DNA of 64,000 nucleotides, taken from the NCBI RefSeq assembly GCF_904066215.1, contig NZ_LR880474.1:2852001-2916000 (forward strand), given 5' to 3'. Positions 1-15,781 of the stretch are shown here, piece after piece; within the stretch, counting starts at the first letter, position 1, and each line of letters starts with the position of its first letter. The position numbers and the translations under genes were made by a program. The notes below the pieces were generated by a model, which was given only the letters and a program-made list of their open reading frames with translations, made no database searches and was not told the origin of the DNA. Source of the DNA: Microbacterium sp. Nx66. Its GTDB lineage: Bacteria; Actinomycetota; Actinomycetes; Actinomycetales; Microbacteriaceae.

Positions 1-194
1 CGCTTCGGCACCCGCTCCGCGACGCTCCCGCCACCCCGGGTCGCTGAGCCGCCGCCCCGGGTCGCTGAGCCGCCACCCTGGGTCGCTGAGCCGCCGCCCT
101 GGGTCGCTGAGCCGCCGCCCTGGGTCGCTGAGCCGCCGCCCTGGGTCGCTGAGCCTGTCGAAGCGCCCCGTGTCGACGCCCCCACCGCCGTCAT
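1..194 (-). CDS. phnE: Phosphonate ABC transporter permease PhnE, N-terminal fragment (runs off the window)
   Basis: An open frame starts at an ATG whose last bases overlap the stop of the upstream ATP-binding gene (ATGA) and stays open to the left edge. PhnE is the usual third component of PhnD-PhnC-PhnE phosphonate/phosphite uptake, so position and coupling suggest this identity; no membrane segment is reached inside the window. Residues from about 11 to 56 are a tandem heptapeptide of the type GSATQGG, encoded by six 21-bp DNA repeats, followed by SVAERVPKR. This low-complexity N-terminus is not expected in PhnE. The alternative is that the frame is only a by-product of an intergenic repeat and that phnE starts further left. 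Confidence 0.5.
   Translation of the reverse strand, partial: MTAVGASTRGASTGSATQGGGSATQGGGSATQGGGSATQGGGSATRGGGSATRGGGSVAERVPK
28..153. repeat. Six tandem 21-bp repeats of the TTCGACAGGCTCAG family
   Basis: Six head-to-tail 21-bp units occupy this stretch, differing only by single C/T or A/G changes, and end at about 168 in a copy of the CGCTTCGACAGGCTCAG core on the minus strand. The same core recurs near 9025 and 14857. The unit length is a multiple of three, so the copy number can change without a frame shift in the overlapping phnE frame. Confidence 0.9.
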
Positions 195-1018
195 GACGCC
201 CCCACCGCGGTCACGGCGTCGACGAGCTCCACCTGCACGGCACGGATCTCCGCCGTCGTCGTCGCGACGCGGCCGTAGATCTCCATCACCTCGGCTTTGG
301 AGAGTCCGTCCGTCGGGGTGTCCAGGACGACCTCGCCGTGTCGGAGACCCACGATCCGGTCGGCCCAGCTGATCGCGAGGTCGACCTGGTGGAGGCTGCA
401 CACGACGGTGAGTCCTTCGTCGGCGGCGATCTCGCGGATGAGGGCCATCACCTGCTCGCTCGACTCCGGATCGAGCGAGGCGACGGGCTCGTCGGCGAGG
501 AGGATCGCCGGCTTCTGCATGAGCGCCCGGGCGATCGCCACCCGCTGCTGCTGACCCCCGGACAGGGTGTCGCTGCGCTGATAGGCACGGTCGAGGAGGC
601 CGACGCGATCGAGGTGCTCCAGCGCGGTCAGCTTCGTGGCGCGGGGGTAGCTCCACAGCCCGAGCCGCGGGCCGCGCATCCGCGACAGCGATCCGGTCAG
701 CACGTTCTCCAGAACGGTCAGGGAGGGCACGAGCTCGAACTGCTGGAAGATGAAGCCCACGCTGCTGCGGAGTTCCCGCAGCGCCCGACCTTTCGTCGAG
801 GGAACGGATGCGCCGAGCACCTCGACCGACCCGGAGCTGGGGAGCTCCAGGCCGTCGAGATGGCGCAGCAGCGTGGACTTGCCGGAACCGGAGAGCCCGA
901 GCAGCACGACGATCTCTCCCCGCGCCACCTCGAGCGTGACGTCCTTCAGGGCGGTGGTGCTGCCGAAGGTCTTGGTGACGCCGGCGAGGCGGATGAGGGT
1001 GTCGGATGCCGCGGTCAT
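191..1018 (-). CDS. phnC: Phosphonate/phosphite ABC transporter ATP-binding protein
   Basis: This 275-residue protein is the ATPase of a phosphonate-family importer. Walker A (GLSGSGKST, residues 41-49), the signature LSGGQQQR, Walker B (ILLADEP) and the switch histidine (SLHQVD) are all present, and the length fits PhnC. I start it at the ATG at 1018: the longer open frame upstream is arginine/serine-rich shadow sequence overlapping phnD. It lies 28 bp after phnD and its stop overlaps the next ATG, so phnD-phnC-phnE form one minus-strand operon. No C-P lyase genes are visible, so the substrate could be phosphonate, phosphite or phosphate. Confidence 0.93.
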   Translation of the reverse strand: MTAASDTLIRLAGVTKTFGSTTALKDVTLEVARGEIVVLLGLSGSGKSTLLRHLDGLELPSSGSVEVLGASVPSTKGRALRELRSSVGFIFQQFELVPSLTVLENVLTGSLSRMRGPRLGLWSYPRATKLTALEHLDRVGLLDRAYQRSDTLSGGQQQRVAIARALMQKPAILLADEPVASLDPESSEQVMALIREIAADEGLTVVCSLHQVDLAISWADRIVGLRHGEVVLDTPTDGLSKAEVMEIYGRVATTTAEIRAVQVELVDAVTAVGAS

Positions 1019-1046
1019 GGCTTCTCCTGTCGTCAGGCGCGGGGCG

Positions 1047-1970
1047 TCAGCCCTGGCACTGCTCGGCTTCGGTCTCGGCGCAGATGTCGCGGATGAGGTC
1101 GTAGTAGGCGTCGTCCACCGGCTTGGTGGCGAAGAACACGCTGCGGAACGCGTCGGAGTCCGCGCTGTCGATGCCCGCCGCGATGATGTCGTCGATCGTG
1201 ACCTCGCCGAGGGCGTCGACGAGCTGCTTCGCCACGTCATCCGGCAGGGACGAGGAGTAGACGAGCGGAGCACCCGGGACCATGGTCTCGGCGATGACCT
1301 TCACCTTGTCGGACTTCTCGACCTCGGAGTCCTCGGCGAAACCGGCCTCGCACTCGACGCCCTCGCCGACCTTCTGCACGCTCACGTCGTGCTTGCCCGC
1401 GAACACGGGCGTGATGTCGGACTTCGGGTCCACGCCCGCCTCGATGAGGTTGTACGACGGGAAGAGGTAGCCGGAGGTGGACGAGGGGTCCACGAAGCAC
1501 ACCTTCTTGCCCGCGAAGTCCTCGAGGCTGGAGATGTCGCTGTCCGCCGGGACGATCGCCTGCGAGTAGTAGCCGGGCTCCTGGCCCTCCTCGGTGACGA
1601 TGGACGAGATCGGGGTGAGCTTCGCGCCGTTGTTGGTCGCGGTGACGTAGGTGAATCCGGAGAACGAGGCGACGTCGACCTTCCCGGCGACGGCGGCCTC
1701 GATGAGCGCGGCGTAGTCGGTGGACTCGTGGTACTCGACGGTCTTGCCGGTGACCTCGGCGATGTAGTCCATGAGCGGCTGGTAGTTCGTCTCGGTGTCC
1801 ACCGAGTCGGGGACGACGCCGAAGACGAGGGTGTTCTCGTCGACGGCGAATCCACCGGCCGACTGTGCGTCGCCGGGGGCGTCGGTGGCATCGGCCGATC
1901 CGGAGCAGGCGGCGAGGCCGAACGCGAGGATCGCAGCGCCGGCGAGGGCGGGGAGAGCGCGGAGCTTCAT
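1047..1970 (-). CDS. phnD: Phosphate/phosphite/phosphonate ABC transporter substrate-binding lipoprotein
   Basis: This 307-residue protein captures the oxyanion outside the membrane and delivers it to the PhnC/PhnE transporter. It has a lipoprotein signal with lipobox LAAC (Cys22) and the PhnD-family pattern: a VFGVVPDS start of the mature fold, the YQPLMDYIAEVTG segment, VDVASFSGFTYV, and the VCFVDPSSTSGYLFP ligand loop. It is the first gene of the minus-strand operon, with ggaggag about 10 bases before the ATG. A palindrome 56 bp upstream probably binds the divergent GntR regulator. The exact ligand cannot be read from the sequence. Confidence 0.92.
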   Translation of the reverse strand: MKLRALPALAGAAILAFGLAACSGSADATDAPGDAQSAGGFAVDENTLVFGVVPDSVDTETNYQPLMDYIAEVTGKTVEYHESTDYAALIEAAVAGKVDVASFSGFTYVTATNNGAKLTPISSIVTEEGQEPGYYSQAIVPADSDISSLEDFAGKKVCFVDPSSTSGYLFPSYNLIEAGVDPKSDITPVFAGKHDVSVQKVGEGVECEAGFAEDSEVEKSDKVKVIAETMVPGAPLVYSSSLPDDVAKQLVDALGEVTIDDIIAAGIDSADSDAFRSVFFATKPVDDAYYDLIRDICAETEAEQCQG

Positions 1971-2025
1971 GAGGACCTTTCAGGGTGGGAGGAGTGATCC
2001 ACGGACGACTCTCCCAGCAGCCTCG

Positions 2026-2047
2026 CTGAGATGTATACCTATCTCAG
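2026..2047. promoter_or_regulatory. Candidate GntR/HutC operator between phnD and the regulator gene
   Basis: Perfect 7-bp arms CTGAGAT and ATCTCAG flank an 8-bp centre GTATACCT that contains the palindrome GTATAC. GT...TA...AC patterns are typical of HutC-subfamily operators. A related half-site (ATGTACCTAT, 2131-2140) lies directly before the regulator's GTG. On the minus strand the centre offers a TATACA -10 for phnD. The assignment is inferred from position and symmetry. Confidence 0.6.
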
Positions 2048-2140
2048 AAGAGTTCAGTCGGCGTTCACCCGCCATTCGCCTGGATGAACAGCGCCACAAC
2101 ACCCTCGCGACCCTGTGACCGGACGAAGTAATGTACCTAT

Positions 2141-2884
2141 GTGGCCGAAGCTGTGTACACCCAGATCGCCGACGACCTCCGTTCGCGGATCGCGGACGGC
2201 ACGCTCCGCCCCGGCGATGACGTGCCCACGGAAGCCGAGCTCGCGGAGCACTGGCGCACGTCGCGCGGTCCGATCCGCAACGCGCTGGCGGCCCTTCGCG
2301 CGGAAGGCCTCATCGAGACGACCCGCGGCCGGCCGGCGCGCGTGGTGGCGCGCAAAGCGAATCAGGCCGTGGACGTCTCCGTCCCGTTCACCCGATGGGC
2401 GCGCGACCTCGGCGTCACCCCTGGCGCGCAGACGCAGGAGCTGAGTCTGCGGCGCGCGGGCGATCTCGGCCCGGCGCTGGGTGTCGGACGCGACGACACC
2501 ATCGTGAGCGTGGTGCGTCTGCGGCTCCTCGACGGCCGTCCCACGATGCTGGAGCGCCTCGCGTACACCGAGGACGTCGGCCGTCGGCTGTTCGAGATCG
2601 ACCTCGATGCGGTGTCGATCACCGAGTACCTCGCGTCGGTCGGGCATCCGATCGTCGCACTGCAGCACGTCATCGACGCCGTCGCCGCCGACGATCAGGA
2701 CGCCGCGCTTCTCCGCGTGCCGCGAGGAACGCCCATCCTGCGGCTGACGCGCACGTCGCGGGACGCCGAGGGGCGCATCTTCGAGGCATCGGAGGACCGC
2801 TACCTCAGCGAGGTGGTGCGCTTCACCGTGGCGGCGTCCGGGATATCGACGGACGGACACTACATGAGAGCAGTGGGCGGCTGA
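2141..2884 (+). CDS. GntR family regulator, HutC/UTRA subfamily (PhnF-like)
   Basis: This 247-residue protein has an N-terminal winged helix (residues 1-70, with the GntR signature PTEAELAEHWRTSRGPIRNALAAL split over two helices) and a C-terminal UTRA ligand-binding domain (about 95-240). PhnF-type members repress phosphate/phosphonate genes, and this gene is divergent from phnDCE, so local repression is the likely role. The GTG start has no ribosome binding site; a TAATGT hexamer six bases upstream suggests a leaderless transcript. A half-operator lies between that hexamer and the GTG, which would give autoregulation. Confidence 0.88.
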   Translation: MAEAVYTQIADDLRSRIADGTLRPGDDVPTEAELAEHWRTSRGPIRNALAALRAEGLIETTRGRPARVVARKANQAVDVSVPFTRWARDLGVTPGAQTQELSLRRAGDLGPALGVGRDDTIVSVVRLRLLDGRPTMLERLAYTEDVGRRLFEIDLDAVSITEYLASVGHPIVALQHVIDAVAADDQDAALLRVPRGTPILRLTRTSRDAEGRIFEASEDRYLSEVVRFTVAASGISTDGHYMRAVGG

Positions 2885-3098
2885 GGCCGGAGACAGATTC
2901 GCGACCGCGGGCGCGGGAGTGTAAGAAGCCAGAAAGATCGCGCCCGCGATCGCAGCGCTGGGGACGCTTTATCTGGGGAGCCTTCAGGATATGTCGGCGC
3001 CGCGAAGCCTCTGAAGTGCCGAATGTCGAGACACTCGTAGACTTTCGTCTACGGCCTCGGGGGCGGAATCACGGGCGTCGTCTCAGGATACGCGGGGC

Positions 3099-4241
3099 TC
3101 AGACCACCGGCAACACGGCGGACACGAGCCAGTGTCCGTCCACCTCCCCGGCGCTGAACTCGCCGCTGGCGCCCATCACGCGTTCGGCCATCCGCCCCAG
3201 GCCGGTCCGACTGGAGGATAGCTCCCGACGCGGCGTCGTGGGGAGCGGACTGCGCAGTGAGAGGTGCGCCTTGTCGTCGTCCACCGCGAGACGGATCTCG
3301 ACGGTTCCGGGGCCGGCATACTTCAGGACGTTCGTGGCCGACTCGCGCACGATGCGCGCGAGCACGATCTCGACCGCGCGGGGAATGCGCTCGTCGCCGG
3401 GGTCGCCGTCGAGGATGACGTCGTGCCCGGCCGCTTCGAATTCGGTCCGCGCTTCCTCGACCGCGGCGACGAGGTCACCGGTCGGCATGCCCGCAGCGCG
3501 CGGGCCGTCGTCGGCGAGGTCGATCACGAAACGGAGGTCTGTCATGGCCTTGCGGGCGGCGACGCGGATCGCCTCCCGGGAGCCATCGCTGGCGTCGGGG
3601 TCTTCGAGCATCTGTACGTGCAGCGACACCACGGTGAGGTGGTGCGCGATGCTGTCGTGCAGCTCGCCGGCGATCCATCGTCGCTCGGCGAGGACGGCTT
3701 CCCGTTCCTGCTCAGCCGCTGCCTCCAGCTCGTGCTCGAGGCGACGTCCGCGGTCGAAGGCCAGCCGGAGTCCGAGGCCGATGGCCCCGGCGACGGTGGC
3801 CGCGATCAGGTAGATGCCGACGTTGACCGGGACGTCCGAGTCGCCGTAGGCCATGACGGACGCAGCGACGAGAAAGACTCCCGTGTAGGAGAGGACAAGA
3901 GGGGTCCACCCCAGGCGCATGACCAGCGCAGACGCCAGGGCGGCGGTGATGAGGACCTGCGATTCGGTCCCCGTGAAGAACGAGGCCACCAGAACGATGC
4001 CGATCGCACAGGTGGCGATCAGAGGCGACCAGAGGAACAGAGCGGTAGCGAGAGTCGAGGCGATGCTCACCGCGGAGGCGAGGGGATTCACGGTGGGGTC
4101 CGTGAAAAGAGTGAAGACGTCGATCGCAACCATCACGCTGATGATCGCGAGGATGACGATGCTCTCTACGCGTGTGAGGCGTTCGCCGCGTGCGAGTCGG
4201 AAAATATCAGGCACCGCCCGTTTTGACTGGTCTAAGGCCAT
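3099..4241 (-). CDS. Two-component sensor histidine kinase (NarL/HisKA_3 type)
   Basis: This 380-residue protein begins with about five hydrophobic segments (residues 25-165) without a large extracellular domain, then a HisKA_3 dimerisation helix with the phosphorylation site His195 in GELHDSIAHH, and an HATPase domain with an N box (RESATNVLKYA) and a G box (GLGRMAERV). It is divergent from a NarL-type response regulator 226 bp away, its evident partner. Such membrane-embedded sensors often detect envelope stress or antibiotics in actinobacteria, but the signal is unknown here. No ABC transporter lies beside the pair. Confidence 0.93.
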   Translation of the reverse strand: MALDQSKRAVPDIFRLARGERLTRVESIVILAIISVMVAIDVFTLFTDPTVNPLASAVSIASTLATALFLWSPLIATCAIGIVLVASFFTGTESQVLITAALASALVMRLGWTPLVLSYTGVFLVAASVMAYGDSDVPVNVGIYLIAATVAGAIGLGLRLAFDRGRRLEHELEAAAEQEREAVLAERRWIAGELHDSIAHHLTVVSLHVQMLEDPDASDGSREAIRVAARKAMTDLRFVIDLADDGPRAAGMPTGDLVAAVEEARTEFEAAGHDVILDGDPGDERIPRAVEIVLARIVRESATNVLKYAGPGTVEIRLAVDDDKAHLSLRSPLPTTPRRELSSSRTGLGRMAERVMGASGEFSAGEVDGHWLVSAVLPVV

Positions 4242-4467
4242 GGTGCACTGTCTCCTATTCGCCAGCTATCCTAGCGAGTGAAACCGAAAAGCTTGCCAAC
4301 CTGCTGCCAGAAAGTCATTACATTCACCTCCGTTCTAGTGCCGTTTGTCGATGTCTGTATTCATCTTCTCGGCGGCGCGCGGAGCGCACATCTGGCCTTC
4401 GTCCAGACCTCGATAGCCAAAGGTCTACATCCTCAGAGCGCCCGCTTCACGCCGTTAGGCTTCCTCC

Positions 4468-5121
4468 ATGCAGGAAATCCGCGTCGTGATCGTCGATGAC
4501 GATCCTCTGGTCCGCTCCGCGCTGTCGCACTTCGTGTCGCGCGCGCCCGAGATCACGGTCGTGGCGCAGGCGGAGGACGGCCTGGAGGCCCTCACGACGG
4601 TCGAGCGCGAGAAGCCGGACGTCGTGATGATGGACGTCCAGATGCCGGAGATGAACGGCATCGAAGCGACCGCGGCGATCGCCGAACGATGGCCGGACGT
4701 CCGCATCCTCGCCGTCACCACGCTCGACGGCAGCGACACCGTGCTGCCCATGCTGAGCGCCGGCGCCTCCGGCTACCTGCTGAAGGATTCCAGCGCGGAG
4801 GAGATCGTCACGGGTGTTCGCGAGGTGTTCGCCGGAGCGAGCTCGCTGTCGCCCCGCATCGCGTCGATGTTGATCCGCCACGTGCGCGACTCCACTCCCA
4901 CCGCAGCCGCGGAGACCCTCGAACCGCTCACCGAGCGCGAGGAGGAGGTGCTCCAGTGCCTCGCGAAGGGCATGTCCAATGCCGAGATCGCGAAGGCGCT
5001 CATCGTCTCGGAGGGGACGGTGAAGGCCCACCTCGGCCGCATGATGTCGAAGTGGCACCTGCGCGACCGCGTGCAGATCCTCGTCACGGCCGCCCACGCC
5101 GGACTCGTCACCTTCCGCTGA
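4468..5121 (+). CDS. NarL/LuxR family response regulator
   Basis: This 217-residue protein has a receiver domain (1-120) with acidic pair D10-D11, phosphoacceptor Asp56 in VVMMDVQMP, a conserved Thr (VTT) and Lys (LLKDSS), and a LuxR-type helix-turn-helix (about 150-212: TEREEEVLQCLAKGMSNAEIA). It should be phosphorylated by the divergent kinase. The 226-bp intergenic region between the two is clearly richer in A+T than its surroundings and must hold both promoters; I could not assign clean hexamers. No target gene is evident from the neighbourhood. Confidence 0.94.
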   Translation: MQEIRVVIVDDDPLVRSALSHFVSRAPEITVVAQAEDGLEALTTVEREKPDVVMMDVQMPEMNGIEATAAIAERWPDVRILAVTTLDGSDTVLPMLSAGASGYLLKDSSAEEIVTGVREVFAGASSLSPRIASMLIRHVRDSTPTAAAETLEPLTEREEEVLQCLAKGMSNAEIAKALIVSEGTVKAHLGRMMSKWHLRDRVQILVTAAHAGLVTFR

Positions 5122-5130
5122 GACGCGGCC

Positions 5131-5994
5131 TCAGAGCGCGAGCAGCACGATCCCGACGAGGACGATCAGCGAGGCGCCCATCCGCCATCCCGGCCGGGAC
5201 TCGCGCAGGACGAAGGCGCCGAACAGGCTCACGAGCACGACGCTGACCTCCCGCAGCGGTGCGACGAGGGCCACGGGAGCGATCTGGATGGCGGTCAGCA
5301 CGAGGATGTAGGACAGCGGCGACAGGATGCCGAAGGCCAGGATGCGGCGCCACTGCGTGCGCCCCAGCGCCACGACCGCACCCCATCGTCCACGAACCGC
5401 CACGGAGTAGAACGGCACCTGCAGCAGCGTGGTGCCGACCATGAACGCCACGGGTGACAGCTCCCACTCGCGCACCGCGTGGGCGTCCCAGATCGTGTAG
5501 ACCGCGATCGCCACGCCGGTGAGGGCGCCGAACAGCAGACCGGGGTCGATGCGGCGCCCGCTCCCTGCCGGCCGGCGGTCGACGAACCCGATCGCGACGA
5601 CCCCGACGATCACCGCGGCGACGCCGACGAGCGCCAGGGCCGAGGGGCGTTCCCCGAGCAGGAGCACGGCGACGATGACCGAGAGGAAAGGCCCGGTGCC
5701 CCGCGCCGTCGCGTAGACCGTCGACAGACTGCCCTCCCGGTAGCCGCGCTGCAGCACGGCCATGTAGGCGACGTGCAGGACCGCGGAGACGGAGACTCCG
5801 AGCGCGAACGAGCCGAGGTCGGCCGCACCGAGTCCGCCCGTGAACGGCACGGCCCCGATCCAGACGACCGTGCTGGCGACGGCACCCCACCACAGGAACG
5901 GCGAGCCGGCGCGGCTGATGCCGTGCGCGATGACGTTCCAGGACGCGTGGGCGATCGCGGCGGCGAGGACGAGGACGAGAGCGACGGCGGACAC
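5131..5994 (-). CDS. DMT/EamA family membrane transporter
   Basis: This 287-residue integral membrane protein has about ten hydrophobic helices arranged as two EamA repeats, each ending in the family pattern (PFLSVIVAVLLLGERPSALALVGVAAV; PLREVSVVLVSLFGAFVLRE, both read in part). Members export metabolites or act as permeases of small molecules; the substrate cannot be told. I chose the GTG at 5994 because GGAGGG lies about 9 bases before it and hydrophobic sequence begins immediately; the longer frame upstream is proline/arginine-rich. It converges on the response regulator gene with 9 bp between the stops. Confidence 0.88.
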   Translation of the reverse strand: MSAVALVLVLAAAIAHASWNVIAHGISRAGSPFLWWGAVASTVVWIGAVPFTGGLGAADLGSFALGVSVSAVLHVAYMAVLQRGYREGSLSTVYATARGTGPFLSVIVAVLLLGERPSALALVGVAAVIVGVVAIGFVDRRPAGSGRRIDPGLLFGALTGVAIAVYTIWDAHAVREWELSPVAFMVGTTLLQVPFYSVAVRGRWGAVVALGRTQWRRILAFGILSPLSYILVLTAIQIAPVALVAPLREVSVVLVSLFGAFVLRESRPGWRMGASLIVLVGIVLLAL

Positions 5995-6232
5995 GGCAGA
6001 CCCTTCCCTCCGCCGCGGGCGCGACGAATCGGGTCCTCCGGGCTTTTGTCCTGTCAGATGACGACCCTCCTGCGGAAGAGGACCGTGGCGCCGCTCGGAC
6101 CAGACGGGTGGAGACCCCGGAACCCTAGGCGCTATCGCCACCACCCTATCCCCGACCGGGAAGGCCGCGAGACGGGGTTCGTGACGGGGCGCGACTACGC
6201 TCGAAGGACACCCCGCGCAGGAAGGTCACGCC

Positions 6233-7516
6233 ATGCCCGTCACCCCGGACGCCCTCGCCCACGCCGAGGACCTCGCCGACTTCGTCGCCGCCTCCCCGTC
6301 GAGCTATCACGCAGCCGCCGAGACGGCCCGCCGTCTGGAGGAGGCCGGATTCACACGGTTGCAGGAGGAGGACGCCTGGCCCGCGCAGCCCGGAGGCCGG
6401 TACCTCGTGGTCCGCGACGGCGCGACGATCGCGTGGGTGGTGCCGGAGGGGGCGACCGCCACGACGCCCGTGCAGGTGTTCGGGGCGCACACCGACTCCC
6501 CCGGCTTCAAGCTCAAGCCACAGCCGACCACCGGAGCCCGCGGCTGGCTGCAGGCCGCCGTCGAGGTGTACGGCGGTCCGCTGCTGAACTCCTGGCTCGA
6601 CCGGGAGCTGCGCCTCGCCGGCCGGCTCGCCCTCGCCGACGGTCGGGTCGTCCTCGCCGACACCGGAGCCCTGCTGCGCCTCCCCCAGCTCGCCATCCAC
6701 CTCGATCGGGGGGTCAACAACGGCCTCGCGCTCGACAAGCAGACCGAGACGCAGCCGGTGTGGGGTCTCGGCGACCCGACCGAGGCCGACGTGCTGGCCG
6801 AGCTCGCGGCATCCGCCGCCGTGGACCCCGCAGAGATCCGCGGCTACGACGTCGTCGTCGCCGATGCCGCGCGGGGCGCGGTGTTCGGCAAGGACGACGC
6901 GTTCTTCGCCTCCGGCCGGCTCGACGACCTCGCCTCCGTGCACGCGGGCGTGGTGGCCCTCGCGGCCCATGAACCCGAGGCGGGAGCCCCCGTCGCGATC
7001 CTCGCCGCGTTCGACCACGAAGAGCTCGGCTCCGAGTCGCGCTCCGGCGCCGCGGGCCCCTTCCTCGAGGATGTGCTGGAGCGGCTCTACGCAGGGCTCG
7101 GGGCCGACGGCTCCGCCCGCCGCCAGGCGTACGCGTCGTCGTGGTGCCTGTCCAGCGACGTCGGGCACTCCGTGCACCCGAACTACGTCGGCCGACACGA
7201 CCCCGTCGTTCAGCCCGTGCTCGGCTCCGGGCCCATCCTCAAGCTCAACGCCAACCAGCGCTACGCGACCGATGCGGTCGGCGCCGCGTCCTGGCGGAAC
7301 TGGTGCGATCGGGCCGGGGTGGTGACGCAGGAGTTCGTCTCGAACAACAGCGTGCCGTGCGGCTCGACCATCGGACCGATCACCGCGACACGGCTCGGCA
7401 TCCGCACGGTCGACGTGGGGATCCCCATCCTCTCGATGCACTCCGCGCGCGAGCTCGCCGGGGTCTCGGACCTGCACGACCTGACGCGCGTGGCCGGGGC
7501 TTTCTTCGCCGGCTGA
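6233..7516 (+). CDS. M18 family aminopeptidase
   Basis: This 427-residue protein is a cytosolic metallo-aminopeptidase that removes acidic or neutral N-terminal residues. The M18 signature is complete: metal ligands in GAHTDSPG (His86, Asp88), the insert NSWLDRELRLAGR, RLDDLAS with the bridging aspartate, the catalytic FDHEELGS, and the final ligand histidine in ILSMHSARE. Length is the family norm. AGGAAGG precedes the ATG at good spacing. It is a single gene between the divergent DMT gene and the NCS1 permease. Confidence 0.94.
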   Translation: MPVTPDALAHAEDLADFVAASPSSYHAAAETARRLEEAGFTRLQEEDAWPAQPGGRYLVVRDGATIAWVVPEGATATTPVQVFGAHTDSPGFKLKPQPTTGARGWLQAAVEVYGGPLLNSWLDRELRLAGRLALADGRVVLADTGALLRLPQLAIHLDRGVNNGLALDKQTETQPVWGLGDPTEADVLAELAASAAVDPAEIRGYDVVVADAARGAVFGKDDAFFASGRLDDLASVHAGVVALAAHEPEAGAPVAILAAFDHEELGSESRSGAAGPFLEDVLERLYAGLGADGSARRQAYASSWCLSSDVGHSVHPNYVGRHDPVVQPVLGSGPILKLNANQRYATDAVGAASWRNWCDRAGVVTQEFVSNNSVPCGSTIGPITATRLGIRTVDVGIPILSMHSARELAGVSDLHDLTRVAGAFFAG

Positions 7517-7583
7517 GCCGAGCGCCCGGCGCGGTGCCCTGATCCACGTCACGAGTGCGCTCGCGGAGTGCCAGGATGTGAGG

Positions 7584-9023: not shown

Positions 9024-9634
9024 GCCCTTCGACAGGCTCAGGAGCCCAGGAGCCGACAGGCTCAGGGACCCAGGAGGCGGCAGACTCAGGGACCGAGAGC
9101 TGGCTCGTGGTGGTCGATCCGCAGGTGATCTTCGCGTCGCCCGACTCCGCCTGGGGCTCGCCGTTCTTCGCCGAGGCGATGGCGAACATCCGTCGGCTCG
9201 CGGAGGCCTTCGGCGAGCGCGTGCTCGTGACCCGCTGGCTTCCGACGGCCGACCGCTCCACCTCCTGGGGCGAGTACTTCGCGGCGTGGCCGTTCGCCGA
9301 CCGGTCCGCCGACGACGCGCTCTATGCACTGGTCCCCGAGGCGGAAGGCCTGTCTCCTCATCCGACCGTCGACCTGCCCACGTTCGGCAAGTGGGGCCCG
9401 GAGCTCGAGGCGATCGTCGGGCACGGTGGCCGTATCGTGCTGGCGGGGGTGTCGACGGACTGCTGCGTCGTGTCCACCGCTCTCGCCGCCGCCGATGCCG
9501 GAGCACGGGTGACGCTCGCCGCCGACGCCTGCGCCGGCTCCACGGCCGAGAACCACGCCGCCGCCGTGCAGGTCATGAGCCTGTATCCCCCGCAGATCAC
9601 CGTGACCGACACCGCCACCCTCCTCTCTCCCTGA
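9020..9634 (+). CDS. Isochorismatase-like cysteine hydrolase with repeat-derived N-terminus
   Basis: This 204-residue protein carries the isochorismatase/nicotinamidase fold with the Asp-Lys-Cys triad: Asp33 in VVVDPQ, the lysine in TFGKWG, and cysteine in the nucleophile loop VSTDCCV, preceded by the family cis-peptide region. Family members hydrolyse nicotinamide, ureidoacrylate, carbamoyl-sarcosine or similar amides. The GTG overlaps the permease stop. The first 26 residues (STGSGAQEPTGSGTQE and onward) are encoded by a dispersed DNA repeat and lie before the first strand of the fold, so they should be a disordered tail. A later start has no in-frame ATG. Confidence 0.87.
   Translation: MSPSTGSGAQEPTGSGTQEAADSGTESWLVVVDPQVIFASPDSAWGSPFFAEAMANIRRLAEAFGERVLVTRWLPTADRSTSWGEYFAAWPFADRSADDALYALVPEAEGLSPHPTVDLPTFGKWGPELEAIVGHGGRIVLAGVSTDCCVVSTALAAADAGARVTLAADACAGSTAENHAAAVQVMSLYPPQITVTDTATLLSP
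9024..9104. repeat. Three degenerate copies of the GACAGGCTCAGGGACC repeat in the hydrolase N-terminus
   Basis: CCTTCGACAGGCTCAGGAGCCC is followed after 27 bases by a second copy (CGACAGGCTCAGGGACCCAG) and then by a third, more degenerate copy (GGCAGACTCAGGGACCGAG). The elements sit in frame at the 5' end of the hydrolase gene, immediately after the permease stop. The same family is found at 28-170 and at 14856. Confidence 0.9.
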
Positions 9635-9943
9635 CCCTCTCCCTCTCCCCCTCCCCGCCCGTGCGAGACGGAAATCGCACCTCCGCGCGCCCCATCCGGC
9701 CCGTTTTCGATCCCGGCACGAGGTGCAGTCCGGCCGCGGGACGGATTCCACTCCTTGAGAGGGTCCATCGGGAACGGTTTCGATCCCGCGCGGAGTGTCC
9801 GTCGCGGGACGCGAAACGCACCTCCGCCGCGCGACTGCGGTGCGGTATCGATCCGGCACTGGGGTGTGGCGTTCGGGCGGGACGCGAAGCGCGCCTCGGC
9901 AGCCACGGGGAGGAGCGTTCTTGAGCTCGGCAGGGGCGGCGGG
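9635..9943. repeat. Gene-free stretch made of degenerate ~70-bp repeat modules
   Basis: Between two convergent genes there is no plausible coding frame. After a pyrimidine-rich tract (9630-9660) three copies of a block TTTCGATCCCGGCACGRGGTG-like (at about 9703, 9778 and 9844, successive spacings about 76 and 66 bp) alternate with copies of a block GCGGGACGCGAAACGCACCTCC-like (about 9664, 9735, 9795, 9885; the second is weak). This is a decayed tandem array. I see no start codon, ribosome binding site or good hairpin. Confidence 0.65.
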
Positions 9944-10654
9944 TCAGGCGTGGGCACGGACCGCGGCGGCGATGTCGGCGGGAGTTCCGCGCCAGGGAGC
10001 ACCATGACCGGGGAGGACCCACGCGGCGTCAAGTGCGGCGAGGCGGTCGAGCGAGGCCAGGGCTTCCGTGGGCTCGTCGGTGAACGGGGCGGGTTGCGCA
10101 CCCTCCTCCCCCGTGAGCACATGCCGCGTGGTCAGGGCATCGCCGACGAATACCGCGCCGACCGCCGGGACATGCACCGCGATGCTCCCCGGCGAGTGCC
10201 CCGGAAGCCCCACGACGACCGGAGCCCCGGGGAGGTCGAGCACATCACCGTCCGCGACCTCGGAGACCTCGGTGACGTGGCGCGTGCGGAGGGCGCTCTT
10301 GCGGAGACCGTAGGCGAGGAAGCCGAGCATCGGACCGGGCCGTGCAGGGCCCATCGGAGTCTTCGGCTTCTCCCCTGTACGCACGCGGTGAGCATCGGCG
10401 CCGTGGATGTAGACCGGAACTCCGGCCTCGCGGCGCAGCCGTTCCGCGAAACCGATGTGGTCGCTGTCGCCGTGGGTCAGCACGAGTCCGCGGATGTCGG
10501 ACAGCGGTCGGCCGATCACGGCGAGCTCTCGCTGAAGGTCGTTCCAGTGCCCGGGCAACCCGGCGTCGACGAGGGTGATGCCCTCGGGCAGGTCGATGAG
10601 ATACGAGGCGACGATGTCGTTGCCGAGGCGGTGGAGGTGGGGGGCGAGCTTCAT
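9944..10654 (-). CDS. MBL fold metallo-hydrolase
   Basis: This 236-residue protein has the metallo-beta-lactamase fold: the metal motif in THGDSDHIG (an HxDxDH variant of the usual HxHxDH), a later ligand histidine in GLPGHSPGS, the bridging aspartate in VFVGDAL, and the last histidine in LPGHGAP. Such proteins hydrolyse lactones, thioesters or phosphodiesters; which cannot be said. It is divergent from a TetR regulator across 78 bp that contain two palindromes, so it is very likely the regulated gene. A TTGACA hexamer (10708-10713, minus strand) lies inside the second palindrome. Confidence 0.9.
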   Translation of the reverse strand: MKLAPHLHRLGNDIVASYLIDLPEGITLVDAGLPGHWNDLQRELAVIGRPLSDIRGLVLTHGDSDHIGFAERLRREAGVPVYIHGADAHRVRTGEKPKTPMGPARPGPMLGFLAYGLRKSALRTRHVTEVSEVADGDVLDLPGAPVVVGLPGHSPGSIAVHVPAVGAVFVGDALTTRHVLTGEEGAQPAPFTDEPTEALASLDRLAALDAAWVLPGHGAPWRGTPADIAAAVRAHA

Positions 10655-10676
10655 GATGATCCTCTCGGGCGGTTGC

Positions 10677-10699
10677 GATGGCTACGTTACGTAGCTATC
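10677..10699. promoter_or_regulatory. TetR operator 1
   Basis: A 23-bp palindrome centred on T10688 has perfect inner arms GCTACGT/ACGTAGC, and outer GAT/ATC pairs separated by one mismatch. A plus-strand promoter overlaps it: TTGCGA (10673-10678), a 17-base spacer, and TATCAT (10696-10701). Binding of the regulator would block transcription of its own gene. Confidence 0.75.
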
Positions 10700-10720
10700 A
10701 TGGCTACTGTCAATAGCCAT
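10700..10720. promoter_or_regulatory. TetR operator 2, adjoining operator 1
   Basis: A 21-bp palindrome with arms ATGGCTAcTG and CAaTAGCCAT (one mismatch per half) abuts operator 1 directly. It shares the GGCTA/TAGCC element with it. It covers the minus-strand TTGACA of the hydrolase promoter. Two adjoining sites suggest binding of two dimers to shut both divergent promoters. Confidence 0.72.
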
Positions 10721-10732
10721 CGAGGAGGATCC

Positions 10733-11257
10733 GTGCCCACCCCCGAACGCACATCGATCGATGCCATCGTCGCGGCCGGCCAGGAGATCCTCGAGGCCAA
10801 CGGCCCTGCGGGACTCACGATGCAGGCGGTCGCGGAGCGTGTGGGCGTGCGTGCCCCCTCCCTCTACAAGCGCGTGCGGGATCGTGAAGCCTTGCGTGTC
10901 GCGGTCGCCACGGCCTCCGTCGACGCCCTCGCGACCCAGCTCGAGGCGGCGGGCGACGACCTCTCCACCCTCGCCCGGACCTATCGCACCTTCGCTCACG
11001 CGCACCCGGAGGGCTTCCGCCTCATGTTCAACGCCGCGGTCTCCCATCAGACTCTGGAACGCTCCGCCGCTCCCATCATCCGTGCCTGCACCACCGCGGT
11101 CGGCGAGGCGGACGCCCTCGACGCCGCACGCCTCTTCACCGCCTGGGCCACCGGATTCCTGCAGATGGAGCTGTCCGGGGCGTTCCGACTCGGCGGTGAC
11201 GTCGACCGCGCATTCGACTACGGCCTCCGGCGCCTCATCGCGAGCCTCGCCGATTGA
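10733..11257 (+). CDS. TetR/AcrR family regulator (WHG-domain type)
   Basis: This 174-residue protein has an N-terminal TetR helix-turn-helix (residues 7-50: LTMQAVAERVGVRAPSLYKRV in part) and an all-helical ligand domain of the WHG type, as found in regulators of hydrolases and oxidoreductases. I prefer the GTG at 10733, preceded by GAGGAGG, to the in-frame ATG at 10700, because that ATG lies within an operator and only a few bases after a -10 hexamer. It probably represses itself and the divergent MBL hydrolase. The ligand is unknown, perhaps the substrate of that hydrolase. Confidence 0.88.
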   Translation: MPTPERTSIDAIVAAGQEILEANGPAGLTMQAVAERVGVRAPSLYKRVRDREALRVAVATASVDALATQLEAAGDDLSTLARTYRTFAHAHPEGFRLMFNAAVSHQTLERSAAPIIRACTTAVGEADALDAARLFTAWATGFLQMELSGAFRLGGDVDRAFDYGLRRLIASLAD

Positions 11258-11308
11258 CGACGCTGGTCATTCCCTGTCCACGACGGCGGATACTGGCACA
11301 CTGAGGCC

Positions 11309-12361
11309 GTGGAAGACTCCCGCAGCACCGCCGGTACCGTGGCCGCGAAGACCGGCCGGTCGCCCTGGCGTCGCACGAAGATCGCCGTGGGCGTCCTCGC
11401 CGCGGTCGCCGCCGTCGTCGCGATCATCGGGGCGCTCACGCCGTGGCCATCCGCGATGATCATCCGCTCGGTGTTCACGAAGGGCGGCGACGAGACCGCG
11501 GCGGAGATGACGAAGCACGTCCCGGACACGCCTCTCGACGAACGGAAGGACATCGCCTACGGGGATGCCGGCGCGGACACGACGATGGACGTCTTCCGCC
11601 CCGCCTCCGCCGACAGCGCGCTGCCGACTGTCGTGTGGATCCACGGAGGTGCCTGGATCTCGGGCTCGAAGGAGGACGTCGATCCCTACCTCCGCATCCT
11701 CGCCGCGGAGGGCTACACGACCATCGGCGTGAACTACGCCCGCGGACCCGAGGGCGTGTACCCGCTCGCCGTCCACCAGCTCGACGAGGCCCTCGCCTAC
11801 ATCGACGCGCACGCGGCGGAACTGGGCGTCGACCCGCGTCGCATCGTGCTGGCGGGGGACTCCGCGGGCGCTCAGCTCGCCAGCCAGATGGCCACGCTCA
11901 TCACGAATCCGGACTACGCCGAGATCCTCGGCATCCGCCCGTCGATCCGCGCCGACCAGCTCGTCGCGACCGTGCTGAACTGCGGCGTCTACGACCTCGC
12001 CGCACTGGCCGAGCTCGACGGAGTCCCGGGGTGGGGCTTCAAGTCGGCGATGTGGGCGTACTCCGGGACGAAGACCTGGGCGGAGGACTCGACCGGCGCC
12101 ACGATGTCGACCGTGGACTGGGTCACCTCCGACTTCCCCGCGACGTACATCTCGGGCGGCAACGGCGACGGGCTCACCTGGCTCCAGTCGATCCCGATGG
12201 CGAAGCGGCTGCAGGAGCTCGGCGTCGATGTGACGCCGGTGTTCTGGCCCGCGCCGCACGAGCCCGCCCTCCCGCACGAGTACCAGTTCCACCTCGATCT
12301 TCCCGAGGCTCGAAAGGCCCTGGCGGACACCATCGCCTTCCTCGACGCGCACACCCGCTGA
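11309..12361 (+). CDS. Membrane-anchored alpha/beta hydrolase (HSL/carboxylesterase-like)
   Basis: This 350-residue protein has a positively charged N-terminus and one membrane helix (residues 25-47), which should place the enzyme outside. The catalytic domain has the oxyanion motif IHGGAW, the nucleophile elbow GDSAG, a region ISGGNGDGLTW where the acid is expected, and a late histidine in HEPALPHEYQF. This pattern belongs to the hormone-sensitive-lipase/carboxylesterase group acting on esters. The start is a GTG at 11309. It is transcribed alone, 51 bp after the TetR gene. Confidence 0.86.
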   Translation: MEDSRSTAGTVAAKTGRSPWRRTKIAVGVLAAVAAVVAIIGALTPWPSAMIIRSVFTKGGDETAAEMTKHVPDTPLDERKDIAYGDAGADTTMDVFRPASADSALPTVVWIHGGAWISGSKEDVDPYLRILAAEGYTTIGVNYARGPEGVYPLAVHQLDEALAYIDAHAAELGVDPRRIVLAGDSAGAQLASQMATLITNPDYAEILGIRPSIRADQLVATVLNCGVYDLAALAELDGVPGWGFKSAMWAYSGTKTWAEDSTGATMSTVDWVTSDFPATYISGGNGDGLTWLQSIPMAKRLQELGVDVTPVFWPAPHEPALPHEYQFHLDLPEARKALADTIAFLDAHTR

Positions 12362-12458
12362 CCCGGCCCCTGTCGTCCGGCGGGGCTGCCACGGTCGCAC
12401 GATCCCGACACGACGGCACGACTCGTTCGGCCGGACGTCTGTTCATCCGTTCCCCGAT

Positions 12459-12582
12459 CGTGCAGGCGGACCTCGGCACGGGTGGAAACGGACCCGGGCA
12501 CGGGTGCACGACCCGGGCACGGGTGCACGACCGAATCCGGGAGATACCCGTGCCCCTGGCGCCGGGTCGTGCAGGCGGGGCG
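12459..12582. repeat. Direct and inverted repeats upstream of kynA
   Basis: Two adjacent 19-bp copies of ACCCGGGCACGGGTGCACG (12492-12529) are followed by an interrupted inverted copy: TACCCGTGCCC, six bases, CCGGGTCGTGCA (about 12545-12576). In addition TCGTGCAGGCGG occurs at both ends (12459 and 12571). The arrangement could form alternative hairpins, either as terminator of the hydrolase gene or as a control region of the kyn operon. Confidence 0.7.
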
Positions 12583-12637
12583 GGATCTGGACATAACATG
12601 TCTGTGACGATCGGCACGGAAGTGATATGTTCGCGGG

Positions 12638-13489
12638 ATGCACACGGAGAACGAACGCGCACTCGAGTCGGGGATCGTCACGGATCTCTCCGGTCGTATG
12701 ACCTACGGCTCGTACCTCGCGCTCGACCAGCTCCTCACGGCACAGCATCCGGTGAGCGACCCGCAGCACCACGACGAGATGCTGTTCATCATCCAGCATC
12801 AGACGACGGAACTCTGGCTGAAGCAGCTGCTGCATGAGCTCAGCTCGGCGCGGGAGCTGCTCGCGGCGGACGACCTGCGCGAAGCCCTCAAGCGCATCGC
12901 CAGGGTCAAGCGGATCCAGGACGTGATGACGCAGCAGTGGTCGGTGCTCGCGACGCTGACCCCGACGGAGTACGCCCAGTTCCGCGGCGCCCTCGGCAAC
13001 TCGTCCGGCTTCCAGTCGGTGCAGTACCGGGCCGTCGAGTTCGCGCTGGGCAACAAGAACGAGAAGATGCTGAGCGTCTTCCGCGACCACCCGGCGAACC
13101 TCGCGCTCCTCACGGCCGAGTGGGAGAAGCCCACGCTGTACGACGAGTTCCTCCGCTACGCCTCTCGCCGCGGTCTCCCGATCCCCCGCGAGATCCTGGA
13201 CCGCGACGTGCGGGAGCCCTACCGCGAGACCCCGGACCTCGTACCTGCCATCCGTGCGATCTACCAGGACCCGCGCACCCACTGGGACCTCTACGAGGCC
13301 TGCGAGGACCTCGTCGATCTCGAGGACAACTTCCAGTTCTGGCGCTTCCGTCACCTCAAGACCGTGTCCCGCACCATCGGGATGAAGGTCGGCACCGGCG
13401 GGTCGAGCGGCGTCGGCTTCCTGCAGCGCGCCCTCGACCTGACCTTCTTCCCCGAGCTCTACACCGTCCGCACCGAGATCGGTTCCTGA
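12638..13489 (+). CDS. kynA: Tryptophan 2,3-dioxygenase
   Basis: This 283-residue cytosolic heme enzyme opens the indole ring of L-tryptophan to N-formylkynurenine. The family pattern is clear: MTYGSYLALDQLL, the distal region HHDEMLFIIQHQTTELWLK, NSSGFQSVQYR, and the proximal heme histidine in FRHLKTVSRTIGMKVGTGGSSGV. Length is normal. It is the first gene of a four-gene operon and its stop overlaps the next ATG (TGATG). A TATGTT hexamer at 12626-12631, with TGTGAC 17 bases further upstream, lies only six bases before the ATG, so the transcript may be leaderless. Confidence 0.97.
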   Translation: MHTENERALESGIVTDLSGRMTYGSYLALDQLLTAQHPVSDPQHHDEMLFIIQHQTTELWLKQLLHELSSARELLAADDLREALKRIARVKRIQDVMTQQWSVLATLTPTEYAQFRGALGNSSGFQSVQYRAVEFALGNKNEKMLSVFRDHPANLALLTAEWEKPTLYDEFLRYASRRGLPIPREILDRDVREPYRETPDLVPAIRAIYQDPRTHWDLYEACEDLVDLEDNFQFWRFRHLKTVSRTIGMKVGTGGSSGVGFLQRALDLTFFPELYTVRTEIGS

Positions 13490-14508
13490 TGCTCACGGCG
13501 ACGTTCTTCGACGGCGAGCGCTGGCGGGACGGCGTCGTCGGACTCGGCGAGGACGGGCGCCCCCGGCTCGGTGAGGAGACGCCCGCGCCGGGGTGCCCGC
13601 TCCTCCCCGGCCGCATCGTCGGGGGCTTCACGGACCACCACGTTCACCTGCAGCTCGTCGACCACGCGTTCCTGGCCTCGTCTCGCCTCGGACGAGTGGT
13701 CGACCTCGGCGGCGATCCGTCCACGGTGGCGCGGATCGCCGTTCACAACTCAGGAGTTTCGACCGGCGGAGGCGCTTCCGAGGCGGTTCCGGGTGTGCCT
13801 GGGCCGGATTCTCCTGACTTGCGAACCGTCGATTTCGCCGGCGCGTTCCTCACACCTCCCGGTGGATACCCCTCGGACCGCGCCTGGGCGCCGGCGGGTT
13901 CGGTGCGGGAGATCGCCGACCCCGCGGCAGCGGCGACCGCGGTCGAGGAGATGGCAGCGGCCGGTGTCTCCTGCGTCAAGGTCGCGAGCAACAGCACCGC
14001 CGGCCCGGTCTTCTCCGACGCCCTCTTCCGCACGATCGCCGACCTCGCCGCAGCCCGAGGCCTCCCGGTGATCGCCCATGCGGAGGGCTCCGGCGAAGCG
14101 CAGCGCGTCGTCCGCCTCGGAGCGACGCAGCTGGCCCACGCCCCGTTCTCCGAGCGCCTGGACGACGAGGAGATCGCGGAGCAGGCCGCCCGCATTTCCT
14201 GGATCAGCACCCTCGCCATCCACGACTCCCACGCGCGGGCCATCGCGATCGACAACGTCGCCCGCTTCCACGCCGCCGGCGGCACCGTCCGCTACGGCAC
14301 CGACATGGGCAACGGCCCGACCCCCGTCGACCTGAACCCGGCTGAGGTCGCCGCCCTCCGCACCGCCGGCCTCGACGACGACGCCCTCCTCCGCGCCCTC
14401 GCGCCCGTCGACCCGCTCGATCCCCGCTCTCTCCTCCTCCTGCTGCCACCCGGATCCGCCGATCCTCTGGCCGCCCGCCCCCTCACCCCCGCCGACCTGA
14501 AGGTGTGA
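13489..14508 (+). CDS. Amidohydrolase family protein, candidate N-formylkynurenine formamidase
   Basis: This 339-residue protein has the metal site of the amidohydrolase superfamily: HVH in GGFTDHHVHLQL, the lysine in CVKVASN, histidines in VIAHAEG and QLAHAPFSE, and the aspartate in RYGTDMGNG. It sits between kynA and kynU, overlapping the first by one base and 1 bp from the second. No KynB- or arylformamidase-like gene is present, so hydrolysis of N-formylkynurenine to kynurenine is the role I infer; this is not established for the family. Residues 85-115 (glycine/serine/proline-rich) are an apparent insertion encoded by a palindromic element. Confidence 0.82.
   Translation: MLTATFFDGERWRDGVVGLGEDGRPRLGEETPAPGCPLLPGRIVGGFTDHHVHLQLVDHAFLASSRLGRVVDLGGDPSTVARIAVHNSGVSTGGGASEAVPGVPGPDSPDLRTVDFAGAFLTPPGGYPSDRAWAPAGSVREIADPAAAATAVEEMAAAGVSCVKVASNSTAGPVFSDALFRTIADLAAARGLPVIAHAEGSGEAQRVVRLGATQLAHAPFSERLDDEEIAEQAARISWISTLAIHDSHARAIAIDNVARFHAAGGTVRYGTDMGNGPTPVDLNPAEVAALRTAGLDDDALLRALAPVDPLDPRSLLLLLPPGSADPLAARPLTPADLKV
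13743..13822. repeat. Palindromic element inside the amidohydrolase gene
   Basis: The ends of this segment are imperfect inverted repeats: AACTCAGGAGTTTCGACC on the left and GGCCGGATTCTCCTGACTT on the right, around a GC-rich centre. It stays in frame and encodes a low-complexity stretch (NSGVSTGGGASEAVPG and onward) in the middle of an otherwise compact catalytic domain. This looks like a small mobile or REP-type element. Confidence 0.55.
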
Positions 14509-14509
14509 C

Positions 14510-15781
14510 ATGACCGACCGCTCCGCCGACACCGCCCTCCTCGATGCCGCCCGCGCCCTGGACGCGTCCGACCCCCTCGCGGCCCACCTCGACGCCTTCG
14601 TCGAGGCCCCGGGCGTCACGGCCTACCTCGACGGCAACTCGCTCGGCCGCCCGCTGCGCGACGTGCCGGAGAAGCTCGCCGCGTTCGTGCGCGAGGACTG
14701 GGGCACCCGCCTCATCCGCTCCTGGGACGAGCAGTGGATGGCGCTGCCGATGGAGCTCGGCGACCGCATCGGCGCCGTCGCCCTCGGCGCGGGCGCGGGG
14801 CAGACGGTCGTCTCCGACTCCACGAGCGTCCTCATCTACAAGCTCATGCGGGGCGCCCTTCGACAGGCTCAGGGACCCACGGGAGCGGCTCAGGGACCCA
14901 CGGGGCGGACGGAGCTCGTGATCGAGGAGGGGAACTTCCCCACCGACCGGTTCCTCGCCGAAGGCGTCGCGGCGGAGATGGGGGCCACGCTGCGCTGGAT
15001 CACGCCCGATCCGGTGCACGGCGTCACGATCGACGACGTCGCGGCTGTGGTCTCGGAGCGGACGGCGCTCGTCTCGCTCAGCCACGTCGACTACCGCTCT
15101 GGCGCCCTCGCCGACATGCCGGGCATCACCGCCGTCGTCCACGAGGCCGGGGCACTGATGATGTGGGACCTCTGCCACTCGGCGGGTGTCGTGCCGATGC
15201 AGCTCGACGACTGGGGCGTCGACATGGCGGTCGGCTGCACGTACAAGTACCTCAACGGCGGCCCGGGGTCGCCCGCGTTCGCCTACCTCCGCCACGACCT
15301 GCAGGGCGTGCTGCGGCAGCCGATCCAGGGCTGGTGGAGCGCCGCCGACATCTTCGCCATGGGCCCCGAGTACGTCCCGGCGGACGGCATCCGTCAGCTC
15401 CTCAGCGGCACGCCGCCGGTGACCTCGATGCTCGCGATGCAGGGCATGATCGACCTCATCGAACAGTCGGGGATCGACGGCGTGCGCGCGAAGTCGGAGT
15501 CGCTCACCGCGCTCGCGGTCCGGGCGTACGACGAGCTGCTCGCGCCCCTGGACGTCCGCCTGCTCAGCCCTCGCGACCCCGCGCTGCGCGGCGGACACAT
15601 CACGATCGGCCACCCGGACTTCCGGGAGGTCACCCGGAGACTCTGGGCCGACGGCGTCATCCCCGACTTCCGCTTCCCGGACGGGATCCGGCTCGGGCTG
15701 TCGCCGCTGAGCACGTCGCACGCCGAGACCGTCGCCGGGGTGCTCGCGGTGAGGGACGCACTGGAGTCCGGTGTCTCCTGA
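14510..15781 (+). CDS. kynU: Kynureninase
   Basis: This 423-residue PLP enzyme cleaves kynurenine to anthranilate and alanine. Landmarks are YLDGNSLGRP near residue 40, the phosphate-binding SDSTSVLIYK, the cofactor aspartate in MMWDLCHSAG, the Schiff-base lysine in CTYKYLNGGPG, and LSGTPPVTSM. It is the third gene of the kyn operon, ending inside the start of the PaaX-like gene. Residues 116-134 (RQAQGPTGAAQGPTGR) are encoded by two copies of a dispersed DNA repeat and lie where other kynureninases have a short loop. Together with TDO the operon yields anthranilate; no anthranilate-degrading genes follow. Confidence 0.95.
   Translation: MTDRSADTALLDAARALDASDPLAAHLDAFVEAPGVTAYLDGNSLGRPLRDVPEKLAAFVREDWGTRLIRSWDEQWMALPMELGDRIGAVALGAGAGQTVVSDSTSVLIYKLMRGALRQAQGPTGAAQGPTGRTELVIEEGNFPTDRFLAEGVAAEMGATLRWITPDPVHGVTIDDVAAVVSERTALVSLSHVDYRSGALADMPGITAVVHEAGALMMWDLCHSAGVVPMQLDDWGVDMAVGCTYKYLNGGPGSPAFAYLRHDLQGVLRQPIQGWWSAADIFAMGPEYVPADGIRQLLSGTPPVTSMLAMQGMIDLIEQSGIDGVRAKSESLTALAVRAYDELLAPLDVRLLSPRDPALRGGHITIGHPDFREVTRRLWADGVIPDFRFPDGIRLGLSPLSTSHAETVAGVLAVRDALESGVS
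14856..14908. repeat. TTCGACAGGCTCAGGGACCC repeat inside kynU
   Basis: One full copy (CCTTCGACAGGCTCAGGGACC) is followed by a truncated copy (GCGGCTCAGGGACCCACGGG). It is read in a different frame from the copies in the hydrolase and phnE genes, giving RQAQGPTG instead of STGSGT. The insertion keeps kynU open. Confidence 0.9.

Follow-up and report, generated by a model that had tools for sequence, protein, structure and literature searches.

Microbacterium sp. Nx66 carries a hairpin repeat of about 24 nt that lies both within and between genes, and it is probably a non-autonomous, REP-like mobile repeat, with no known transposase, whose in-gene copies survive as linkers. The first-pass annotation of the window (the whole stretch of 64,000 nucleotides that was analysed) had reported one core in three reading frames, phnE, a hydrolase gene and kynU. 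This sequence observation was confirmed: with up to three mismatches, the 19-mer was matched at 144–162 (−), 9028–9046 (+), 9052–9070 (+) and 14859–14877 (+), that is, at all three places, and these four matches are far above chance, with a mean of 0.06 in 100 shuffles, none of which reached four. In the genome of 3,457,093 bases, the 14-mer TTCGACAGGCTCAG occurred in 69 exact copies, with no copy of the reversed control pattern; with the variant TTCGACARGCTCAG included, there were 76 copies. Stretches fetched round all 69 copies and a few near-matches held 73 of these 76 units, in 41 clusters. A chance origin was rejected on the window shuffles, the reversed control and shuffles of the stem pairs.

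In the sense orientation, the unit has the form SSCT-TCGACAGGCTC-AGSG-ACCCA, a short hairpin with a four-base covarying stem, a feature missed in the first-pass annotation. Read from the tag, it is TGGGT-[CSCT]-GAGCCTGTCGA-[AGSG] (99 loop-seeded sites where three or all four stem pairs form), of which the sense form SSCTTCGACAGGCTCAGSGACCCA is the complement; the consensus 5' of the stem at these 99 sites was T76 G82 G86 G89 T80. All four stem pairs were present at 73 of 102 loop sites in the Nx66 genome, against a mean of 28.8 and a maximum of 38 in 200 shuffles. Across phyla, 205 of the 257 loop sites in the 119 loci listed were fully paired (shuffled mean 85, maximum 101), with 16 stem types; these loci had been chosen with CSCT in the search pattern, which favours the CSCT stem types and not the others. 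It is clear that the stem is kept by compensatory change and that the unit is a hairpin. Judged by sequence, it has four Watson–Crick pairs and an 11-nt loop; if G.A pairs closed the loop, which is our own idea, seven pairs and a 5-nt loop would result. Translated from the letters, the unit has five open frames out of six, the exception being an antisense frame with a TGA. The arrays at 1–16000 of the window gave no Rfam match at E-values up to 0.5. A separate, full-length match like a Guanidine-I riboswitch was seen at 6034–6139 (−); its 49.2 bits (E-value 2.4e-6) fall short of the Rfam gathering score, which is 63. The match extends over the 5' region of an ORF at 5131–6144 (−), which we take from its look to be an EamA-type transporter.

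The 5' part of phnE lies at 1–194 (−) and the gene, with a BPD_transp_1 domain in its body, runs on past the window. Its ATG (194–192) overlaps the stop codon (193–191) of an upstream ORF for an ABC transporter ATPase at 191–1018 (−), which has an ABC_tran match and which, following the first-pass annotation, we presume to be phnC-like. The array at 28–170 (−) encodes an N-terminal linker of PhnE and consists of six head-to-tail GGGTCSCTGAGCC units, as had been described, of which one is full and the following five are truncated. The full 24-nt hairpin, CGCTTCGACAGGCTCAGCGACCCA, occupies 142–165 (−) with the stem CGCT/AGCG, an assignment that also draws on the stem covariation. The translation begins with MTAVGASTRGASTGSATQ, followed by five more GGGSAT(Q/R) units. 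In 14 of 14 relatives read, the phnE start was the corresponding ATG; the linker was short in L327, L329, L331 and L334, held units in L321, L328, L330 and L332, and by our reading was intermediate or decayed in L322–L326 and L333.

The second site is in an isochorismatase-family hydrolase gene at 9020–9634 (+) (Isochorismatase domain, E 6.8e-27), whose GTG overlaps the stop codon of an upstream transporter gene (7578–9023). Here sequence and translation bore out a three-unit array at 9024–9104 (+) in the N-terminus, the first unit at 9025–9048 and the others degenerate. It is read as SPSTGSGAQEPTGSGTQEAADSGT and is placed between the GTG and the conserved start of the hydrolase. Among 15 relatives, we read units in L217, L219, L226 and L227, decayed units in L216 and L224, a different repeat in L214 and L215, and no unit in the other seven.

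At the third site, one full and one half unit were found in kynU (14510–15781, +; kynureninase, with KYNU_C and Aminotran_5 matches), in agreement with the 1.5 units reported at 14856–14908 (+). The full unit, CCCTTCGACAGGCTCAGGGACCCA, lies at 14856–14879 (+) with the stem CCCT/AGGG, and a truncated 3'-half unit, GGCTCAGGGACCCA, at 14887–14900 (+); together they are read as LRQAQGPTGAAQGPTG. The first-pass annotation was also right about the two frames, STGSxT in phnE and the hydrolase and RQAQGPTG in kynU. The insert falls in a variable loop that is gapped in the alignment to the solved kynureninase 1qz9. The kynU search matched 118 of 119 genus genomes, and the loop was read in 30 genomes, a sample made up of the 30 best loci and four requested places, with three loci lacking a match to our motif. 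Units were present in four (our genome, G140, G029 and G111), decayed in G005 and not recognisable in 25; the insert in G111 KynU was open and longer than 60 residues.

Inserts were also found in the genes for isoleucyl-tRNA synthetase (IleS), phenylalanyl-tRNA synthetase beta (PheT) and PEP carboxylase, and further insert-bearing genes are present, whose names are presumptive. The IleS insert was missing from 13 of 16 relatives, while G029 and G140 had the same insert and G022 the second repeat described below. For PheT, 13 of 16 loci were readable, with a unit in four, a decayed one in one and none in eight. Both inserts sit at gapped or weakly aligned places with respect to solved structures. 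For KynU, IleS, PheT, the hydrolase and PhnE, the same site is occupied in some relatives and unoccupied in others, with differing unit numbers. The first-pass proposal of an element spreading as low-complexity inserts is largely right: the inserts are dispersed in unrelated genes at sites empty in many relatives (kynU 25/30, IleS 13/16, PheT 8/13). No recent insertion was seen, and most sites common to our genome and G029 are old; no target duplication was definable in the filled and empty pairs compared, which have diverged and include no recent insertion, so it is the distribution of the copies that points to mobility. A second repeat, GGTCGTTGAGCGAG...CGAGACGAAACG, was seen at the same gene sites in congeneric species (the hydrolase N-terminus in L214, L215 and L219, and IleS in L246); its search expression gave 19 matches in the relatives' loci and none in our own stretches. 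As this repeat shares the gene sites and a GGTCG-TGAG start, both repeats may use one insertion route.

The units form head-to-tail arrays as well as opposed pairs. Near-perfect 24-nt head-to-tail copies were seen at G000:C1:645109, and elsewhere repetition was limited to the 3' half. Of 73 half units in the stretches of our genome, G029 and G005, 51 stood only 3' of a full unit, two only 5' and 10 between full units; the remaining 10 had no full unit within 120 nt. Spacings between neighbouring units were multiples of three in all 18 cases within genes, as an open frame demands, and in 15 of 25 outside. Such arrays, with unit numbers that differ between species, are what one would expect if GC-rich, low-complexity DNA had slipped independently at many places without any dispersal. 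The common core in 41 clusters, many of them single units, its two orientations and several frames, and its presence in other phyla already contradict this explanation, which we regard as scarcely credible except for the growth of arrays.

By a looser gene call, 21 of our 41 clusters were in genes, 20 of these 21 in the sense orientation only; counted as units, 33 of 73 were in genes, compared with 28 of 59 in G029 and 14 of 46 in G005, both covered in part. The repeat, proposed to spread through coding DNA, is not confined to it: 40 of our 73 units lie outside genes, as do 59 of 64 in 220 kb of Plantibacter (G157) and 69 of 74 in 180 kb of Planctomonas (G169). In these last two, five units each were in genes, three of the Planctomonas ones in a single gene. 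Under a strict rule, with both flanks in one open coding frame, which leaves out the N-terminal arrays of phnE and the hydrolase, 17 of our 41 clusters were intragenic, and 15 of the 17 included the STGSxT frame (p 3e-9, assuming that the five open frames are equally likely). The other two read LRQAQGP only (kynU) and VPEPVEG. The in-gene copies mostly read STGSGTQG, a Gly/Ser/Thr-rich linker. The STGSxT frame was used by six of eight in-gene clusters in G029 and two of seven in G005, making 23 of 32 for the three genomes, some of them orthologous.

Outside genes, too, the orientation was biased in our genome and G029. Between codirectional genes, sense and antisense units numbered 30 and 5 in our genome, 18 and 4 in G029, and 7 and 8 in G005; among our own clusters there, 10 were sense only, five mixed and none antisense only. 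Selection on the peptide can account for the frame within sense copies, not for an orientation bias outside genes. The weak frame bias of G005 (2/7) and its even intergenic orientation count against a mobile repeat. Distances from the upstream gene were measured with genes called by our own codon score. Our genome, G029 and G005 together had 58 first sense units behind a gene on the same strand; 13 of these began 0 nt after the stop codon (TGA 11, TAG 1, TAA 1), a further three at +1 and none at +2; the antisense units listed stood at least 8 nt away, the nearest at 8 nt. One orthologous pair, 3187626 in our genome and L273, is among the 13.

A host-useful RNA element, whose hairpin would tune termination, re-initiation or mRNA stability, with in-gene linkers as by-products, would place sense copies right behind stop codons and between codirectional genes, and the parts of PMC3733652 drawn on here credit REPs close to ORF 3' ends with a presumed role at the RNA level. 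About half of our clusters are nevertheless inside genes (21/41), the unit is missing at the same sites in many relatives, and neither the sense bias nor the abutment is general. In G157 and G169, sense and antisense units between codirectional genes numbered 12 and 9, and 7 and 16, and only one of 42 and none of 45 sense units, respectively, followed directly after a stop; these stretches were chosen where copies were listed, and all units were counted, not first ones alone. Together with G005, they reject both features as family-wide traits, and we regard an RNA element as unlikely. The contrast with G157 and G169 assigns sense bias, stop abutment and linker frame to the clade of our strain: the coding lifestyle belongs to this clade and is most pronounced in our genome and G029. 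Two other ideas about the stop codons failed. That the element supplies the stop and truncates the gene is unsupported, because four orthologous pairs, once aligned, show an equivalent stop in the relative too (own362665/L315, own346602/L317, own3118200/L276 and own3027100/L279), and a TGA target motif was rejected as in-gene copies inspected by eye were not preceded by TGA. REPs near stop codons have reportedly been described before.

The repeat is patchy within the genus and reaches far beyond it. The R-variant 14-mer occurred in 0–125 copies in 35 genus genomes, with none in nine of the 34 relatives, and 0 or 1 times in 23 other genomes of the order. A scan of named genomes gave at least 119 stretches with the hairpin; Proteobacteria, Bacteroidetes, Chloroflexi, Actinobacteria, Patescibacteria, Eremiobacterota, Cyanobacteria, Spirochaetes and Fibrobacter are among the matches listed, and the hairpin flanks differ by lineage. 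In 43 genomes that we picked behind the cross-phylum loci, all known beforehand to hold the core, the 15-mer CTGAGCYTGTCGAAG occurred 1–517 times per genome and the reversed control in none. The loop GAGCYYGTCGA, which was itself the search seed, recurs with different stems and flanks, and this wide spread might be thought to reflect sites that a conserved DNA-binding protein recognises, for instance in DNA uptake or segregation, and that selection, not copying, has scattered. Its lack in nine of 34 sampled congeners, and the occurrence of whole units against empty sites and of tandem arrays, unlike sites made by point mutation, render this quite improbable.

We looked for a transposase with the Y1_Tnp profile (PF01797) and found none in the 35 genus genomes, our own included, so that mobilisation by a RAYT is rejected for the genus as far as PF01797 is concerned. 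Y1_Tnp was present in 24 of the 43 other core-holding genomes; among those with the highest copy numbers, G157 (517), G169 (426), G143 (283), G160 (163), G149 (157) and G184 (148) were without it, and G142 (465 copies) and G171 (170 copies) had three matches each. We know of no mobilising enzyme, and this counts against a mobile repeat. A 48-nt tandem query matched three phage records, none above 80%, and 46 plasmid records, seven above 80%, all with weak E-values. One weak match of this query, at NZ_CP072877.1:200700 on a Microbacterium sp. replicon among the plasmid records, lies in a gene annotated as uvrC; the sections of PMC3733652 that we used comment on the presence of REPs in genes for excision repair.

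Among known systems, the nearest are the CGTC-tagged REPs which, as far as the consulted part of Di Nocera et al. (2013, PMC3733652) goes, are short hairpins with lineage-specific copy number, near ORF 3' ends and sometimes intragenic, and have no associated transposase. Our repeat shares the hairpin, the patchy copy number, the position near ORF 3' ends, some intragenic copies and the lack of Y1_Tnp (0/35). It differs in its tag, which is TGGGT(C) instead of an unpaired CGTC (or TGTC/CCTC) at one end (YGTC[AG] in 12 of 205 cross-phylum hairpins), in having four Watson–Crick pairs and an 11-nt loop instead of 8–9 bp and 4–5 nt, in a stem base without AT, and in truncated head-to-tail units. 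Head-to-head dimers predominate in the CGTC family; in our repeat, head-to-tail arrays and opposed pairs both occur. GTAG REPs with RAYT transposases are likewise dispersed tagged hairpins, and CGTAG precedes four of the 205 paired cross-phylum hairpins; our genome, however, has no GTAG consensus tag, and none of the 35 genus genomes has Y1_Tnp. CGTAG before the hairpin, with the look of a GTAG REP, was seen in L118, L136 and L143 (Sphingopyxis and a Sphingomonadales MAG); the three genomes from which these loci come (G181, G182 and G184) gave no Y1_Tnp match.

The first-pass annotation had likened the inserts to the palindromic elements of Rickettsia. The likeness to the RPE-1 type holds for in-frame palindromic inserts in unrelated, conserved protein genes, but these elements measure 105–146 bp in the portions of PMC10969869 and PMC2229807 consulted and our tandem unit about 24 nt, so it is no RPE. 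MITEs (ERIC/RU-1, Correia/NEMIS) are also small non-autonomous repeats giving in-frame fusions; in the sources as consulted, they are of about 100–200 bp, most of them bear terminal inverted repeats, and several are flanked by target-site duplications. Here no duplication was definable in the diverged pairs. Its tag sets the repeat apart from both REP superfamilies and its size from RPEs; transposase-less REPs fit better than RPEs, though no REP tag matches. A literature text search, consensus figures and the supplements of PMC3733652 lying outside it, found no paper with any of four 13–14-mers or with at least two of six peptide and DNA strings, and nothing on Microbacterium repeats was among the matches listed; the hairpin may have been described earlier as a Sphingopyxis REP.

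If the unit is indeed a mobile hairpin, new copies would be made in trans by a factor acting on the single-stranded hairpin, and arrays would be lengthened by slipped-strand duplication. Insertions within genes would be purged unless they fell in a loop or terminus, in frame, and encoded a flexible linker, and old copies would decay into ordinary linker sequence. More tentatively, and with considerable doubt, there may be a pan-bacterial REP-like superfamily of one hairpin, with this loop, a covarying stem and lineage-specific flanks, copied either through a process that hosts have in common or by an undiscovered non-RAYT enzyme, from which one actinobacterial clade shifted to a coding-DNA lifestyle. 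If so, sense copies behind stops or in genes would pass selection as Gly/Ser/Thr linkers, adding loops to essential enzymes.

One hairpin turns up in many phyla, and the transposase domain that one would expect is often missing, which raises the question of what copies it. Knowledge of mobile short repeats within protein genes has come chiefly from Rickettsia, along with sporadic examples among REPs and MITEs; in the present case, an actinobacterium has such repeats in conserved enzymes, the tRNA synthetases IleS and PheT included, with a clear frame filter. Since filled, partly filled and empty sites coexist in one genus, it becomes possible to test how mobile DNA gives rise to protein linkers.
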